From contig JALSOQ010000026.1 of NCBI GenBank assembly GCA_026986375.1, positions 1-64,000 on the forward strand: a stretch of DNA of 64,000 nucleotides. Direction: 5' to 3'. Of this stretch, positions 411 to 47,433 are shown one piece after another. Origin of the DNA: Archaeoglobaceae archaeon. GTDB lineage: Archaea > Halobacteriota > Archaeoglobi > Archaeoglobales > Archaeoglobaceae. Numbering within the stretch: position 1 is the first letter of the stretch; every line of letters begins with the position of its first letter. The position numbers and the translations under genes are program-made. Under the pieces are notes generated by a model, which was not told the origin of the DNA, searched no databases, and was given only the letters and a program-made list of their open reading frames with translations.

Positions 411-463
411 CCTCAGGACTCTCCCTCTCTTCACGAATCAGATCGCCCATCATTCATCATCGG
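411..463 (-). ncRNA. Candidate C/D box sRNA overlapping the end of the DUF2298 gene
   Basis: Read on the minus strand: C box ATGATGA (460-454), a 12-base guide (453-442), D' CTGA (441-438), a 3-base spacer, C' GTGAAGA (434-428), an 11-base guide (427-417) and D box CTGA (416-413). Box order and about 12-base guide lengths are those of archaeal 2'-O-methylation guide RNAs (partners L7Ae, Nop5, fibrillarin). The C box contains the stop codon of the DUF2298 gene on the same strand, so the sRNA may be processed from the 3' end of that mRNA. The terminal stem is weak. Confidence 0.65.
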
Positions 464-2415
464 CGTAGGGCTTTGGACTTCTCTGTTAAAAACGTTACCT
501 CATATATTTCAACTCTGCCGTCGTCGTATATTTTCTTCAGTTTCTCGAACTTTTGTAGGGATTCGGGAGGATAGTGCTTCTTTTCGAGGTATCCGACGTA
601 AATGTATCTCACGTGATATTTTTCGATTAAACCCATGATGTCCTTAAGGTCTTTCGCCTCGTAAATTCTGTTAACGTCTTTCCACCTTTCGTAGAGCAAG
701 GGTATCGTCGATTTGTTGAAGTAACGCCAAAATAACTCATGCCCGCCCCTTACGATGACGCTCTGCAGACCAGTGAATGCTGAAACCCTTCCGGCGTATG
801 TGTAAGATTCGAACGGACTCTTCCCCGGATATTCTACAATAACACCATTCGGACATTGTTGAAGAAATCTGAGGGCATCGTATTCTCCGTAGGATTTCGT
901 GTATGCCATCCCGTCTATCGTTCCCTTGAAGTGTAACGTCGTTAAGAATCCAGCGGGATATATCCAGAGTATCGCCAGTAGTATCAGGACGGCTTTTTTG
1001 TTCCTTACGTCCTTCAAAATGAAGGAGGCTACGAAAGACAGCATTATCCAAACCTGAACGTATGTTTTGAATACAGTGTTCAGCCTTTCGAATTTTCCCG
1101 TATAGGGATCGTTCACGTAGAATATCTCGACGAGTAGTAAGGTGAGGGTCGCTATGAAAAGCGTAATCCACTTGAAATCTCCCTCGCGTAACTTTAAGAG
1201 AGCTATCACCGTCACCGGGAAAAGGAGAGGAAGTAGCTGGAAGTTCAACAGAAGAGCTACGGGAATTGTCGGGACGCACAATGCAAGAAACTTCCTCCAA
1301 TCTTTGAGAGCTATGTAGATGAGCGGTATCAAAAATAGGGGCTGAGCTACCAGAAAGTTCGGAAGGGCGGTTCGGAATTCCACTACACCTATACCTTTCA
1401 CGGCCTCGGGGTGAAGCTTGATCGCGTAAGGAAGGAACAACAGTGCTATAGGCAAAAACTTCAGATCTTTGAAACGTCTTAGAGATAAAATCGTAACGGT
1501 CAGAAGGGCGGCATATGTTGGAAGTTCCCAAGAGTTCACGGTAAACATGAACCCCAAAAGGAAGGAGAGAAAAGCTACTATCTTACCATCCCCCAGCCTT
1601 ACGTATTCGAACAGCATTATGAGAAACAGAATCTGAAAGGGTATGTCCATTAGGTGGGGATGCAGGTCCCTAAAGGTCAGAGTCGCGAACGGAAATTCGT
1701 TGATGGTTCCCGGAATTATCCTCGTGACAGTCCAGAAGTCGAAAGCCTTCCCGGGATTGAGATCCATATGGATTAAACCCAAACTCTGTAATCCGCATCC
1801 AAGGAGAACGACTAAGGGAGCGAGATTCCCCGCGAGCAGTAGGAATGGCAGGGTCTTCGTTCCGTTTCTTAGAGAGAATTCCACAGCCAAAGACACTGCC
1901 AATGCGAAGAAGGTTGCGAGCCCCAAGTTGTATGCAACTCCTATTGGTGTTCCGGTTAAAACAGTTAGAGTCGCAACGATGAGATATCCCATGTAGTAGT
2001 AGCAGTCGAACCTGAAGAACGCCAGATTTACATCCAACGGTGGCATTCCCTTACTTCGCAAAATCCCGCTCAGAACCCCTACATCCATCATCTTCTCTCC
2101 GCCGAATATGTCAGGGTTGAATGCGGTGTATAAAACGTAAAGGGAGAAGAGGATTGCGAAAGTTATCTCGAACCTGAGGATTTTTCTGAAATTGCACTTC
2201 TTCAAAAACGGCGTGCAGATGACAAATTGCAAAATTAAACCTAACACGCTTGCAATTTTGAACGGCATGAAGTTCGCCAAAATCCAGACGATATAAGCGA
2301 GTAGAATCAAACCCAACGGCTTGGAAGAGTAGGGAATTCGGAGTCCTTCGGCTAATGGTAAAGCCGTTAGAGATATTATTATCAATAAGCCAAGCCAGAG
2401 ACAAAGGTGTATCAT
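457..2415 (-). CDS. DUF2298 (Chlor_Arch_YYY) multi-pass membrane protein
   Basis: A 652-residue protein of the DUF2298 or 'YYY' family, a group of large archaeal and chloroflexi membrane proteins, some of which resemble lipid-linked glycosyltransferases. What is seen: a hydrophobic N-terminus, the segment GGEKMMDVGVLSGILRSKGM followed by FRFDCYYYMGY (the YYY motif), then many predicted membrane helices and a soluble C-terminal part from about residue 520. The ATG overlaps the stop of the upstream gene (ATGA, 2412-2415), so the two are co-transcribed. Two stop codons in a row close the gene and form part of a C/D box sRNA. A role in surface glycan or lipid modification is inference only. Confidence 0.8.
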   Translation of the reverse strand: MIHLCLWLGLLIIISLTALPLAEGLRIPYSSKPLGLILLAYIVWILANFMPFKIASVLGLILQFVICTPFLKKCNFRKILRFEITFAILFSLYVLYTAFNPDIFGGEKMMDVGVLSGILRSKGMPPLDVNLAFFRFDCYYYMGYLIVATLTVLTGTPIGVAYNLGLATFFALAVSLAVEFSLRNGTKTLPFLLLAGNLAPLVVLLGCGLQSLGLIHMDLNPGKAFDFWTVTRIIPGTINEFPFATLTFRDLHPHLMDIPFQILFLIMLFEYVRLGDGKIVAFLSFLLGFMFTVNSWELPTYAALLTVTILSLRRFKDLKFLPIALLFLPYAIKLHPEAVKGIGVVEFRTALPNFLVAQPLFLIPLIYIALKDWRKFLALCVPTIPVALLLNFQLLPLLFPVTVIALLKLREGDFKWITLFIATLTLLLVEIFYVNDPYTGKFERLNTVFKTYVQVWIMLSFVASFILKDVRNKKAVLILLAILWIYPAGFLTTLHFKGTIDGMAYTKSYGEYDALRFLQQCPNGVIVEYPGKSPFESYTYAGRVSAFTGLQSVIVRGGHELFWRYFNKSTIPLLYERWKDVNRIYEAKDLKDIMGLIEKYHVRYIYVGYLEKKHYPPESLQKFEKLKKIYDDGRVEIYEVTFLTEKSKALRR

Positions 2416-44715: not shown

Positions 44716-45693
44716 ATGGCGAAGGGACTCGATGTCGGAACTATGAATATAGTCTGCGCGGAGATGGAAGGAGAAAATGTCGTATTCGTCCAGCAGAGGA
44801 ACGCGTTCTTGGAGCTCGACTACAACGACATAACGAAGATGATGCTCGACAACGCGAACGTCCAGTATGTGATAAAGGGGGACAAGATATACGTTTTGGG
44901 AGACGACGCGATGAAGTTCGCGACCGTCTTCAGAAAGAGCACGAGAAGGCCGATGAAGACCGGAATTCTCAGCCCGGAGGAAAAGGAGGCTGTTCCGATA
45001 ATAAAGCTCATCGTTGAGAAGGTCTTGGGTGAGCCGAACTACGAGAACGAGATAGTCTGCATATCCTCTCCGGCAAATCCGATCGATTCCGACATAGAGA
45101 CGACCTACCACAGAAAGACGATGGAAGCTCTCGTCAGAAAGCTGGGATACAGTCCCTTCACGATCGATGAGGGTCTCGCTATTGTGTATTCCGAACTGGC
45201 GGACAACAGCTTCACCGGAATAGGAATCAGCTTCGGAGCGGGAATGACGAACGTCACCGCCGCTTACTTCGCCGCACCGATCGTTTCCTTCAGCATAGCG
45301 AGGGGTGGGGATTGGATAGACGAGAACGTCGCGAAGGCCACGGGAACTCCGAAGGAGCAGGTCTGTGCGATAAAGGAGAACAACTTCGAACTGAAGTATG
45401 AGGTCGAACTGGGTAGCGTCGAAGGAGCTCTCGCGATATACTACGATTACCTCATCACATACGTCGTGGAAAACCTCAAGAGAAAGCTGACCGAGGTCAC
45501 ACCCCCGCAGGTGGACTTTCCGATAGTGCTCGCCGGAGGAACCTCAAAGCCGAGAGGATTCAAGAGGGTTTTCGAGGAGAAGATATCCCAAGTCGGGTTG
45601 CCCGTGGACGTCTCTCAGATAAGGATGGCGAGGGATCCGCTCTTCAGCGTTGCGAGAGGCTGTCTTATAGCGGCGAAAACCAAGGAAGAATAG
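44716..45693 (+). CDS. Actin-like ATPase (MreB/Hsp70 fold)
   Basis: A 325-residue ATPase of the actin superfamily. Phosphate 1 loop GLDVGTMNIVCAE (residues 5-17), phosphate 2 region GIGISFGAGMTNVTAAY, a MreB-like IARGGDWIDENVAKATG and the adenosine motif IVLAGGTSKPRGF. It has no signal or membrane segment. It may polymerise or act as a switch, but this cannot be read from sequence. It lies between a membrane protein gene and the AMA ATPase gene. It is unlike crenactin, FtsA and DnaK in length and motifs. Confidence 0.85.
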   Translation: MAKGLDVGTMNIVCAEMEGENVVFVQQRNAFLELDYNDITKMMLDNANVQYVIKGDKIYVLGDDAMKFATVFRKSTRRPMKTGILSPEEKEAVPIIKLIVEKVLGEPNYENEIVCISSPANPIDSDIETTYHRKTMEALVRKLGYSPFTIDEGLAIVYSELADNSFTGIGISFGAGMTNVTAAYFAAPIVSFSIARGGDWIDENVAKATGTPKEQVCAIKENNFELKYEVELGSVEGALAIYYDYLITYVVENLKRKLTEVTPPQVDFPIVLAGGTSKPRGFKRVFEEKISQVGLPVDVSQIRMARDPLFSVARGCLIAAKTKEE

Positions 45694-45766: not shown

Positions 45767-46843
45767 GTGAACAGGTATAAGAGGAACAGCGAACAGCCGA
45801 GGGTTGGAGAAGTTAGGTATCTCGTGTTGAGACCCTTGGGATATCCCCTCAAGGCGAGCTATCACGAGTATCCGGTAGTGGACAATCCGAGGGTCTTCGA
45901 GAAATACGCGAAGGATCAGTGGAAGGGAGAATACGTTTCGAAGGGGAAGCTTTTGTTCGACTACAGGATGTTCCCCGACTTCGCGTTCGAAGTGGTAAGT
46001 GCGGAGCCCGACGGAATAATCACCGACTCCACTATAATACTGGTGGAAAATCCTTCGAGAGTGATAGAGACGGAGATCGTGAAGGACGTAAGGCTCAGCG
46101 ATGTGGTAGGGCAGGAGGATGCCAAGAGGAAGGTCAAGGTCATCTTGGAATACCTCAGGAATCCTGAGAAGTTCGGAAAGTGGGCTCCGAAGAACGTCCT
46201 CTTCTACGGCCCACCGGGAACGGGGAAGACGATGATGGCGAAGGCGCTGGCGAACGAGGCGGATGTTCCGTTCCTTTCGGTTAAGTCCACCAAGCTCATA
46301 GGAGAGCACGTGGGAGACGGGGCGAGGAGGATCCACGAGCTATACGAAAAGGCGAGGCAGGTTGCCCCTTGCGTGGTTTTCCTCGACGAGTTCGATTCAA
46401 TAGCTCTGGACAGGAGCTATCAGGATTTGAGAGGGGACGTCAGCGAGGTCGTCAACGCTCTGCTCACGGAGTTGGACGGAATTCAAAAGAACGAGGGGAT
46501 ATGCACGATAGCGGCAACGAACAGGATAGAGATGCTCGACCCTTCGATTAGAAGCAGGTTCGAGGAGGAGATTGAGTTCAAGCTTCCGAACTACGAGGAA
46601 AGACTGCAGATTCTGAAGAACAACCTAAGAGACTTCCCGCTAAAGGTTAGGGCGAACTTGGACGTCGTGGCGAAGAACACGGAAGGTTTTTCCGGAAGGG
46701 ACTTGGTCGAGAAGGTGATAAAGTCCGCTCTGCACAAGGCGATTGCAGAGGGGAAGGAAGTAATAGAGACGGACGATTTTATGAACGTCGTGGAGAGAAT
46801 TAAAACTCCCTCGAAGCAACCGCCGAAGCACATGTTCTTATGA
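45767..46843 (+). CDS. AMA-type AAA ATPase
   Basis: A 358-residue hexameric AAA ATPase. The N-domain contains LRPLGYPLKASYH with the GYPL motif (residues 25-28) that marks AMA proteins of methanogens and Archaeoglobus. The AAA module has Walker A GPPGTGKT (148-155), Walker B VVFLDEFDSIAL (Asp207, Glu208) and ATNRIEMLDPSIRSRFE with the arginine finger. Such ATPases unfold or remodel proteins; the partner is unknown. The start is a GTG at 45767, about 24 bases after GATATTAATAAC (45737-45748). It follows the actin-like gene after 73 bases with its own promoter. Confidence 0.88.
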   Translation: MNRYKRNSEQPRVGEVRYLVLRPLGYPLKASYHEYPVVDNPRVFEKYAKDQWKGEYVSKGKLLFDYRMFPDFAFEVVSAEPDGIITDSTIILVENPSRVIETEIVKDVRLSDVVGQEDAKRKVKVILEYLRNPEKFGKWAPKNVLFYGPPGTGKTMMAKALANEADVPFLSVKSTKLIGEHVGDGARRIHELYEKARQVAPCVVFLDEFDSIALDRSYQDLRGDVSEVVNALLTELDGIQKNEGICTIAATNRIEMLDPSIRSRFEEEIEFKLPNYEERLQILKNNLRDFPLKVRANLDVVAKNTEGFSGRDLVEKVIKSALHKAIAEGKEVIETDDFMNVVERIKTPSKQPPKHMFL

Positions 46844-47001
46844 AAATCAAATCTCATACTGGATACCGGGAGGACTTACAAAATATTTTAAAAAATTCGA
46901 ACTTCGTCGCCTAAGATTAGTTTCACAACGGATGTTCTTACATGATTTGGGGAATTCGAAGTTGTCGAAATTGGAACGAAAGGGTCCATACGATTTTGGA
47001 A

Positions 47002-47060
47002 CGATCAGTCGACATCCCTGTCATCATCCTCCGTCAGACCCGATGGGTTTCATCACCGTC
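47002..47060 (-). ncRNA. Candidate C/D box sRNA A
   Basis: Minus strand: C box GTGATGA (47056-47050), guide of 12 bases (47049-47038), D' CTGA (47037-47034), a six-base spacer, C' ATGATGA (47027-47021), guide of 12 bases (47020-47009), D CTGA (47008-47005). Both guides are the standard 12 bases. A TATA-like CTTTTATTCT (minus strand, 47079-47088) would start transcription at about 47060, four bases before the C box. The flanks ACG and CGT can pair. Confidence 0.75.
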
Positions 47061-47089
47061 GGAATTACTCCACGATAGAATAAAAGTGT

Positions 47090-47147
47090 TGTGTCAGTCC
47101 CGCGCACGTCATCATTGAATCAGTCCGGGTCGACATCATCATCCGAA
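47090..47147 (-). ncRNA. Candidate C/D box sRNA B
   Basis: Minus strand: C box ATGATGA (47142-47136), guide of 12 bases (47135-47124), D' CTGA (47123-47120), a four-base spacer, C' ATGATGA (47115-47109), guide of 11 bases (47108-47098), D CTGA (47097-47094). All four boxes match the consensus. The promoter is less clear: an AAATTGAATA stretch lies about 26 bases upstream on the minus strand. Confidence 0.75.
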
Positions 47148-47177
47148 ACGTTTTAGTCTCGGAGGTGTATTCAATTT

Positions 47178-47235
47178 GGCGGATGATGACGTCCGGCCCT
47201 TCCGATTAGTGAGGAAACGTTTTAGGTCTGACGCC
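47178..47235 (+). ncRNA. Candidate C/D box sRNA C
   Basis: Plus strand: 5' stem GGCG (47178-47181), C box ATGATGA (47183-47189), guide of 12 bases (47190-47201), D' CCGA (47202-47205, variant), C' GTGAGGA (47209-47215, variant), guide of 12 bases (47216-47227), D CTGA (47228-47231), 3' stem CGCC (47232-47235). The end stem pairs perfectly. TTTTAG (47151-47156) lies about 25 bases upstream. Confidence 0.72.
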
Positions 47236-47290
47236 GATGACGAACTTGCCCTTCTCTGAGCGGTGATGAAAACCCAGGGCACTCCGAGGC
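47232..47290 (+). ncRNA. Candidate C/D box sRNA D, sharing bases with sRNA C
   Basis: Plus strand: stem GCC (47233-47235), C box ATGACGA (47237-47243), guide of 12 bases (47244-47255), D' CTGA (47256-47259), C' GTGATGA (47263-47269), guide of about 14 bases (47270-47283), D CCGA (47284-47287, variant), stem GGC (47288-47290). Its 5' stem is the 3' stem of sRNA C, so the two cannot both be complete from one transcript. Confidence 0.65.
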
Positions 47291-47296
47291 GAAAGA

Positions 47297-47305
47297 TTTT
47301 AAATT
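47297..47305 (+). promoter_or_regulatory. TATA box of sRNA E
   Basis: TTTTAAATT lies about 27 bases before the 5' stem of sRNA E (47327), the correct distance for an archaeal promoter. Confidence 0.55.
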
Positions 47306-47326
47306 CCCGCCGTTCTACCGATTAAA

Positions 47327-47382
47327 GCCCGATGAAGAAAAAACAGTTCTGACAAATGATGAATTTGCCGATTACCGAGGGC
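47327..47382 (+). ncRNA. Candidate C/D box sRNA E
   Basis: Plus strand: stem GCCC (47327-47330), C box ATGAAGA (47332-47338), guide of 10 bases (47339-47348), D' CTGA (47349-47352), C' ATGATGA (47356-47362), guide of 12 bases (47363-47374), D CCGA (47375-47378, variant), stem GGGC (47379-47382). The stem pairs perfectly and the gene has its own TATA box. The second guide is complementary to TCGGCAAAT, which I remember as part of a conserved archaeal 23S rRNA segment; not verified. Confidence 0.72.
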
Positions 47383-47433
47383 CATTTGAACGTCCGATCG
47401 GTGCAAAAATAATTGAAGGTGTAATAAAATGGT

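Follow-up and report, generated by a model that had tools for sequence, protein, structure and literature searches.

Five predicted box C/D guide RNA genes clustered on two strands, two of them sharing a stem strand, in an Archaeoglobaceae genome

Within the window analyzed here, a stretch of 64,000 nucleotides from a heat-loving archaeon (contig JALSOQ010000026.1, positions 1 to 64,000), the 590-base gap between an AAA ATPase gene and a ribosomal P1 gene contains five box C/D sRNA units. These units, here called sR1 to sR5, lie within ∼390 bp and on both strands, sR1 and sR2 on the minus strand and sR3, sR4, and sR5 on the plus strand. A volactin-family actin homologue (PF25216) is encoded at 44716-45693, upstream of the ATPase gene.

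Box C/D units in the ATPase–P1 gap

The features of the locus are as follows; rRNA sites are given in the numbering of this genome's own rRNAs.

45767-46843, AAA ATPase gene, PRS2-type by Pfam
47001-47061, minus strand, sR1 C/D sRNA (box C to box D 47005-47056; C 47050-47056, D′ 47034-47037, C′ 47021-47027, D 47005-47008); guides AACCCATCGGGT and CAGGGATGTCGA, predicted sites 23S G2150 and C2122
47079-47086, minus strand, TATA-like box CTTTTATT of sR1, 26 nt before box C
47090-47147, minus strand, sR2 C/D sRNA (box C to box D 47094-47142; C 47136-47142, D′ 47120-47123, C′ 47109-47115, D 47094-47097); guides TGTCGACCCGGA and CGTGCGCGGGA, weak candidate sites 16S G1433 and G423
47149-47156, plus strand, weak TATA-like box CGTTTTAG of sR3-sR4, 30 nt before box C of sR3
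47178-47235, plus strand, sR3 C/D sRNA (box C to box D 47183-47231; C 47183-47189, D′ 47202-47205, C′ 47209-47215, D 47228-47231); closing stem GGCG 47178-47181 with CGCC 47232-47235; guides CGTCCGGCCCTT and AACGTTTTAGGT, predicted sites 16S G472 and A543
47232-47235, plus strand, shared CGCC, 3′ strand of the sR3 stem and 5′ strand of the sR4 stem
47232-47291, plus strand, sR4 C/D sRNA (box C to box D 47237-47287; C 47237-47243, D′ 47256-47259, C′ 47263-47269, D 47284-47287); closing stem CGCC 47232-47235 with GGCG 47288-47291; guides ACTTGCCCTTCT and AAACCCAGGGCACT, predicted sites 23S G1426 and C1749
47297-47304, plus strand, TATA box TTTTAAAT of sR5, 31 nt before box C
47327-47382, plus strand, sR5 C/D sRNA (box C to box D 47332-47378; C 47332-47338, D′ 47349-47352, C′ 47356-47362, D 47375-47378); closing stem GCCC 47327-47330 with GGGC 47379-47382; guides AAAAACAGTT and ATTTGCCGATTA, predicted sites 23S G1893 and C1799
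47434-47766, minus strand, ribosomal P1 gene

The units were located with a box scanner written for this analysis, which requires C, D′, C′, and D in this order. In the 64-kb window it returned exactly the five cluster units, the same five ordered sets as in the original prediction, and one further unit (minus strand, 413-460); among 200 simulated 64-kb sequences it fired once. All five units carry the ordered C (RTGATGA), D′, C′, and D (CTGA) boxes of archaeal C/D sRNAs, with box C of sR4 and of sR5 one base off RTGATGA and with CCGA replacing CTGA at three D or D′ positions of the cluster. Each has two guides of about 10–14 nt adjoining D′ and D, and the lengths measured by the scanner (12/12 nt in sR1, 12/11 in sR2, 12/12 in sR3, 12/14 in sR4, and 10/12 in sR5) agree with the spacers noted originally, which were mostly 11–12 nt with others of 10 and about 14.

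Terminal k-turn stems of 4 bp are present in sR3, sR4, and sR5. Two of the three stems proposed earlier, GGCG/CGCC in sR3 and GCCC/GGGC in sR5, are those found here; the third, given there as GCC/GGC, is CGCC/GGCG in sR4. Both sR1 and sR2 are without a clear stem. In the C/D sRNAs of Methanopyrus terminal stems are often missing or too short (PMC3695527), so that the lack of one does not by itself disqualify the two. In an Rfam scan of the window, none of the five cluster members reached the gathering score of any family. The sole Rfam C/D family match there is RF01152 (sR1 in Rfam), whose member is the sixth C/D sRNA of the window (411-464, minus strand).

A TATA-like box precedes box C of sR1 by 26 nt and that of sR5 by 31 nt; the original prediction had noted a TATA box for two units. 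The sR1 box is also present in two genomes of the genus, G035 and G038, where the position of the sR5 box is occupied by TTTTATGA. The weak box of sR3-sR4 reads GTTTTTAA in relatives, clearer than here. The promoter of sR2 is likewise weak here, and the 35-bp region between sR2 and sR3 has the look of a divergent promoter in relatives.

Conservation and the stem strand shared by sR3 and sR4

The original prediction had tied its validity to conservation of the boxes in related Archaeoglobales, and all five units, with boxes and guides retained, recur in all four congeneric genomes compared (G035, G036, G037, and G038). At 79% identity in G035 and G037, the block keeps its boxes and guides, and drift is seen in the linkers that precede sR1 and sR2 and in the one from sR4 to sR5. 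The ATPase gene precedes the block in G035, G037, and G038 as it does here. P1, the other flanking gene named originally, adjoins the cluster in this genome only and is carried on other contigs in the relatives, which marks it as an accidental neighbor. A decayed cupin gene between the ATPase gene and sR1 was suspected from the intact cupin found there in relatives and was discarded, as only a 12-residue trace is present. In G038, an insertion between sR1 and sR2 (L088:5488-6332) carries a UPF0175 gene and a second ORF with an in-frame stop; judged by eye, the two are probably a toxin-antitoxin pair in which the second ORF is the PIN-like partner.

Single units can also be followed into other genera. 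In genus g4, orthologues of sR1 and sR4 are adjacent and divergent, and sR5 orthologues are found in g4 and g13. In genus g7 the D guide of sR5 is paired with a different D′ guide; guide exchange between sRNAs has been documented in other archaea (PMC4644070). Elsewhere in the present genome, two C/D RNAs lie 11 nt apart (L252:194-308; G000:C16:42043-42157). The second bears the sR5 guide TTGCCGATT at a position 3 nt off with respect to its D box and would therefore modify a neighboring 23S base.

The closing stems of sR3 and sR4 overlap on one CGCC, a feature absent from the original prediction, which treated the two as separate genes. The sR3 D box and the sR4 C box are just 5 nt apart (CTGA-CGCC-G-ATGACGA). 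Because both GGCG strands compete for the same CGCC, the two stems are mutually exclusive. The shared strand is retained in G035 and G037, with stems GGCG/CGCC and GCC/GGC. In G036 the middle strand reads CGCCC and the downstream strand GGGG, a compensated variant that preserves both stems. The junction measures 5–6 nt in four of the five genomes; in the fifth, G038, sR3 and sR4 each have their own copy of GCC and are split by an AT-rich insert of ∼600 bases. This insert (L088:6420-7020) sits exactly between the two units, with GCC flanking both sides. A search for TATA boxes upstream of the units in this genome and its relatives revealed none for sR4 except in G038, where CTTTAAAG lies 33 nt before its box C. 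As sR4 lacks a TATA box of its own unless it stands alone, we infer a single transcript carrying both sR3 and sR4.

Predicted rRNA targets and the working of the cluster

Targets were searched in the 16S and 23S rRNAs of this genome and in its tRNAs (Rfam tRNA coordinates) according to the N+5 rule, by which the target nucleotide is the one that faces the fifth base of the guide upstream of D or D′. Eight of the ten guides have rRNA targets with a paired N+5 base, which supports at the sequence level the initial idea that the guides modify rRNA or tRNA; the two guides of sR2 do not rise above chance. In sR1, both helices have 9 Watson-Crick pairs (23S G2150 and C2122). The sR3 guides form 10 pairs and one wobble at 16S G472 (D′) and 9 pairs and two wobbles at A543, and those of sR4 form 10 pairs and one wobble at 23S G1426 (D′) and 12 and one at C1749 (D). 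For sR5, 11 pairs at 23S C1799 (D) are accompanied by a short helix of 7 pairs and one wobble at G1893 (D′). Approximate E. coli equivalents of the sites in the cluster are 410, 500, 572, and 1462 in 16S and 1303, 1623, 1672, 1776, 2020, and 2048 in 23S.

In each of sR1, sR3, and sR5, both sites lie less than 100 nt apart on one rRNA, which was equaled by none of 400 shuffled pairs in any of the three cases. Moreover, guide bases within the helices are constant across species; variation occurs at the base adjoining the D box, mostly outside the helix. Conservation of the 23S targets was examined in other genera, the assemblies of the congeners being without 23S. The two sites of sR4 fall on complementary 23S segments, AGGGCA (1425-1430) and UGCCCU (1747-1752), predicted to form a helix. 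The E. coli counterparts, GACCA and UGGUC, are also complementary, so that changes on both sides have preserved the pairing. The helix proposed for sR4 was not recovered when the 23S stretch was folded thermodynamically, and the claim of a helix is one of complementarity together with the paired changes relative to E. coli. Taken together, sR1, sR4, and sR5 would act on 23S and sR3 on 16S.

The targets of sR2 are weaker, with 8 pairs at 16S G1433 and 8 pairs and one wobble at G423, and its guides did no better than shuffled ones (56/150 and 63/150). These matches at chance level would suit an orphan or tRNA guide, a status that might extend to the D′ guide of sR5, and the D guide of sR2 forms 9 Watson-Crick pairs with one tRNA gene (G000:C19:6864-6936) at its 3′ end. 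However, the acceptor end is an unusual site, and the positions at which the sR2 guides vary in four genomes fall largely outside the predicted 16S helices. As this variation largely follows the helices, it is the best support for the 16S sites; we therefore regard sR2 as probably acting on 16S and place the orphan or tRNA reading clearly short of an even chance. Apart perhaps from sR2, tRNA targets are not needed. Another reading would be a TIGR-Tas type array directed against DNA, in which guides with two spacers likewise lie in tandem between C- and D-like motifs (PMC12045711). TIGR arrays differ in their motifs, their DNA targets, and their Tas protein. A Pfam scan found no such Nop-domain protein among the seven neighboring proteins of the window, the boxes here are canonical and come with k-turn stems, and the genes occupy two strands rather than a regular head-to-tail array. 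With guides that match the genome's own rRNA rather than foreign DNA, this explanation is extremely improbable. Much the same holds for box-like motifs arisen by chance in intergenic DNA: the motifs are short and partly of low complexity, but a model trained on the gap itself expects ∼0.003 units in its 590 bases, and the conservation in four genomes, the survival of the stems through the change in G036, and the complementarity to rRNA leave coincidence hardly any room.

Based on the boxes, guides, targets, conservation, and shared strand present in the sequence, we read the gap as a compact nest of five C/D guide RNA genes, with four promoters and two directions, that would encode rRNA guides including an sR3-sR4 chain (probability about 0.92). 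The four putative promoters would drive expression of sR1 and of sR2 leftwards and of sR3-sR4 and of sR5 rightwards. Each unit is expected to bind L7Ae, Nop5, and fibrillarin and to pair with rRNA through its two guides, so that a 2′-O-methyl group would be placed on the N+5 nucleotide of each rRNA target. The guides of sR4 would occupy both strands of one predicted 23S helix, for which reason we propose a chaperone role: sR4 probably also holds this helix open during assembly. The sR3-sR4 transcript would carry four guides in a chain, with both closing stems in competition for the single CGCC strand.

Chained and nested guides and relation to known systems

A C/D sequence model (E up to 1) matched 43 places in this genome, at least 17 of which lie within 200 bases of another. 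The earlier view of archaeal C/D sRNA genes as usually dispersed is thus only partly right, since groups of two or three have been described (PMC7994747) and many have neighbors in this genome. A pattern for chains of at least three guides matched 8 of 59 Archaeoglobi genomes, including all five of this genus, and a reversed control pattern gave no match in the 59. The matches in G003, G010, and G012, from other genera, proved to be single units, as did one of the two in G036. Two loci of this genome have nested units:

L275:1606-1712 (G000:C13:100060-100166), minus strand, nested family A; orthologues L277, L278, L290, L280, and L281
L297:1500-1606 (G000:C16:103003-103109), plus strand, nested family B; orthologues L276, L291, L292, L279, and L283

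Both families have the architecture C-12-D-6-C-12-D-3-C-12-D-6-C-12-D, where the last junction was read with the C box that yields a 12-nt guide (13 in some relatives). In every sequence of both, the first and third junctions form a 5-bp helix. In family B two of its pairs are changed on both sides (CG to UA and GC to AU), and 30 of 30 cells pair, compared with at most 60% in slid controls. Observed covariation was reached in 32 of 500 shuffles, a control that is less decisive with six sequences, as expected. All cells also pair in family A, where one pair alone varies and stem covariation by itself is weak. The g4 orthologue of family B is an ordinary two-guide RNA with the outer guides only and a 3-nt D′-C′ loop (L305:145-194, L306:151-200). 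This outer RNA on its own indicates that the inner unit sits in the D′-C′ loop, where it was inserted or lost; as a free-standing RNA the inner unit was not found in the family. The rRNA matches fit this arrangement. The outer guides of family A match 23S C370 and C426, and its four guides differ from those of family B, whose best matches are in 16S for the outer and in 23S for the inner guides, although 23S offers an equally good match for the outer D′ guide of family B (8 pairs and one wobble). Among the openly readable papers searched, none was found to describe nested C/D RNAs. A three-guide chain with 3-nt junctions is found at L250:288-362 (G000:C10:52987-53061); it looks like a fusion, as relatives have two adjacent RNAs with partly different guides.

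We suggest, with odds a little short of even, that the genus builds composite C/D RNAs that act as single four-guide particles. These would comprise the tandem sR3-sR4, with its stem strand switching between two particles, and the two nested loci, where back-to-back k-turns on the shared 5-bp helix would couple two methylation particles, in one case perhaps on 16S and 23S. The composite architecture has good sequence support; the RNA itself is a prediction. For sR3 and sR4, there is a slightly better than even chance that they are ordinary abutting dual guides, with a shared transcript that is cut back to a single RNA of 50–60 nt, either sR3 or sR4, and never serves as a four-guide RNA. Both have complete boxes and a stem of 3–4 bp in every genome, both are intact in G038 where the ∼600-bp insert parts them, and trimming around assembled RNPs is the accepted route of maturation (PMC7994747). 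On the other hand, with 5 nt from D to C and a shared strand, full-ended sR3 and sR4 cannot come from one transcript, and the junction is held at 5–6 nt in four of five genomes.

In published accounts C/D sRNAs are separate RNAs with two guides each, encoded singly or by twos or threes. The conserved cluster and the nested RNAs show how guide units get added, fused, and inserted, and the outer RNA that is alone in one genus and nested in another offers a concrete case of how C/D genes move. A natural four-guide RNA, as predicted here, would be suited to testing the proposal that C/D particles join distant rRNA segments.

The cluster resembles described archaeal box C/D sRNAs (PMC4644070, PMC7994747) in its C/D′/C′/D order, guides of 10–14 nt, D′-C′ loops of 3–6 nt, short closing stems (in sR3, sR4, and sR5), N+5 rRNA targets, pairs of targets within 100 nt, and reshuffling of guides. 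The placement of the sR4 guides on opposite strands of one rRNA helix has a counterpart in sR15 and sR17 of Nanoarchaeum equitans, which address 16S helices 28 and 30 (PMC4644070), whereas the predicted helix of sR4 lies in 23S, near E. coli 1303/1623; for sRNAs that take both strands of a helix, Dennis et al. (2015) proposed a chaperone role (PMC4644070). In contrast to the described groups of two or three, five units here share 390 bp on two strands, and two of them have a common stem strand that would link them into a four-guide chain. Thus, the cluster belongs to a known class, yet it is denser than the groups described, two-stranded, and equipped with a shared stem strand.
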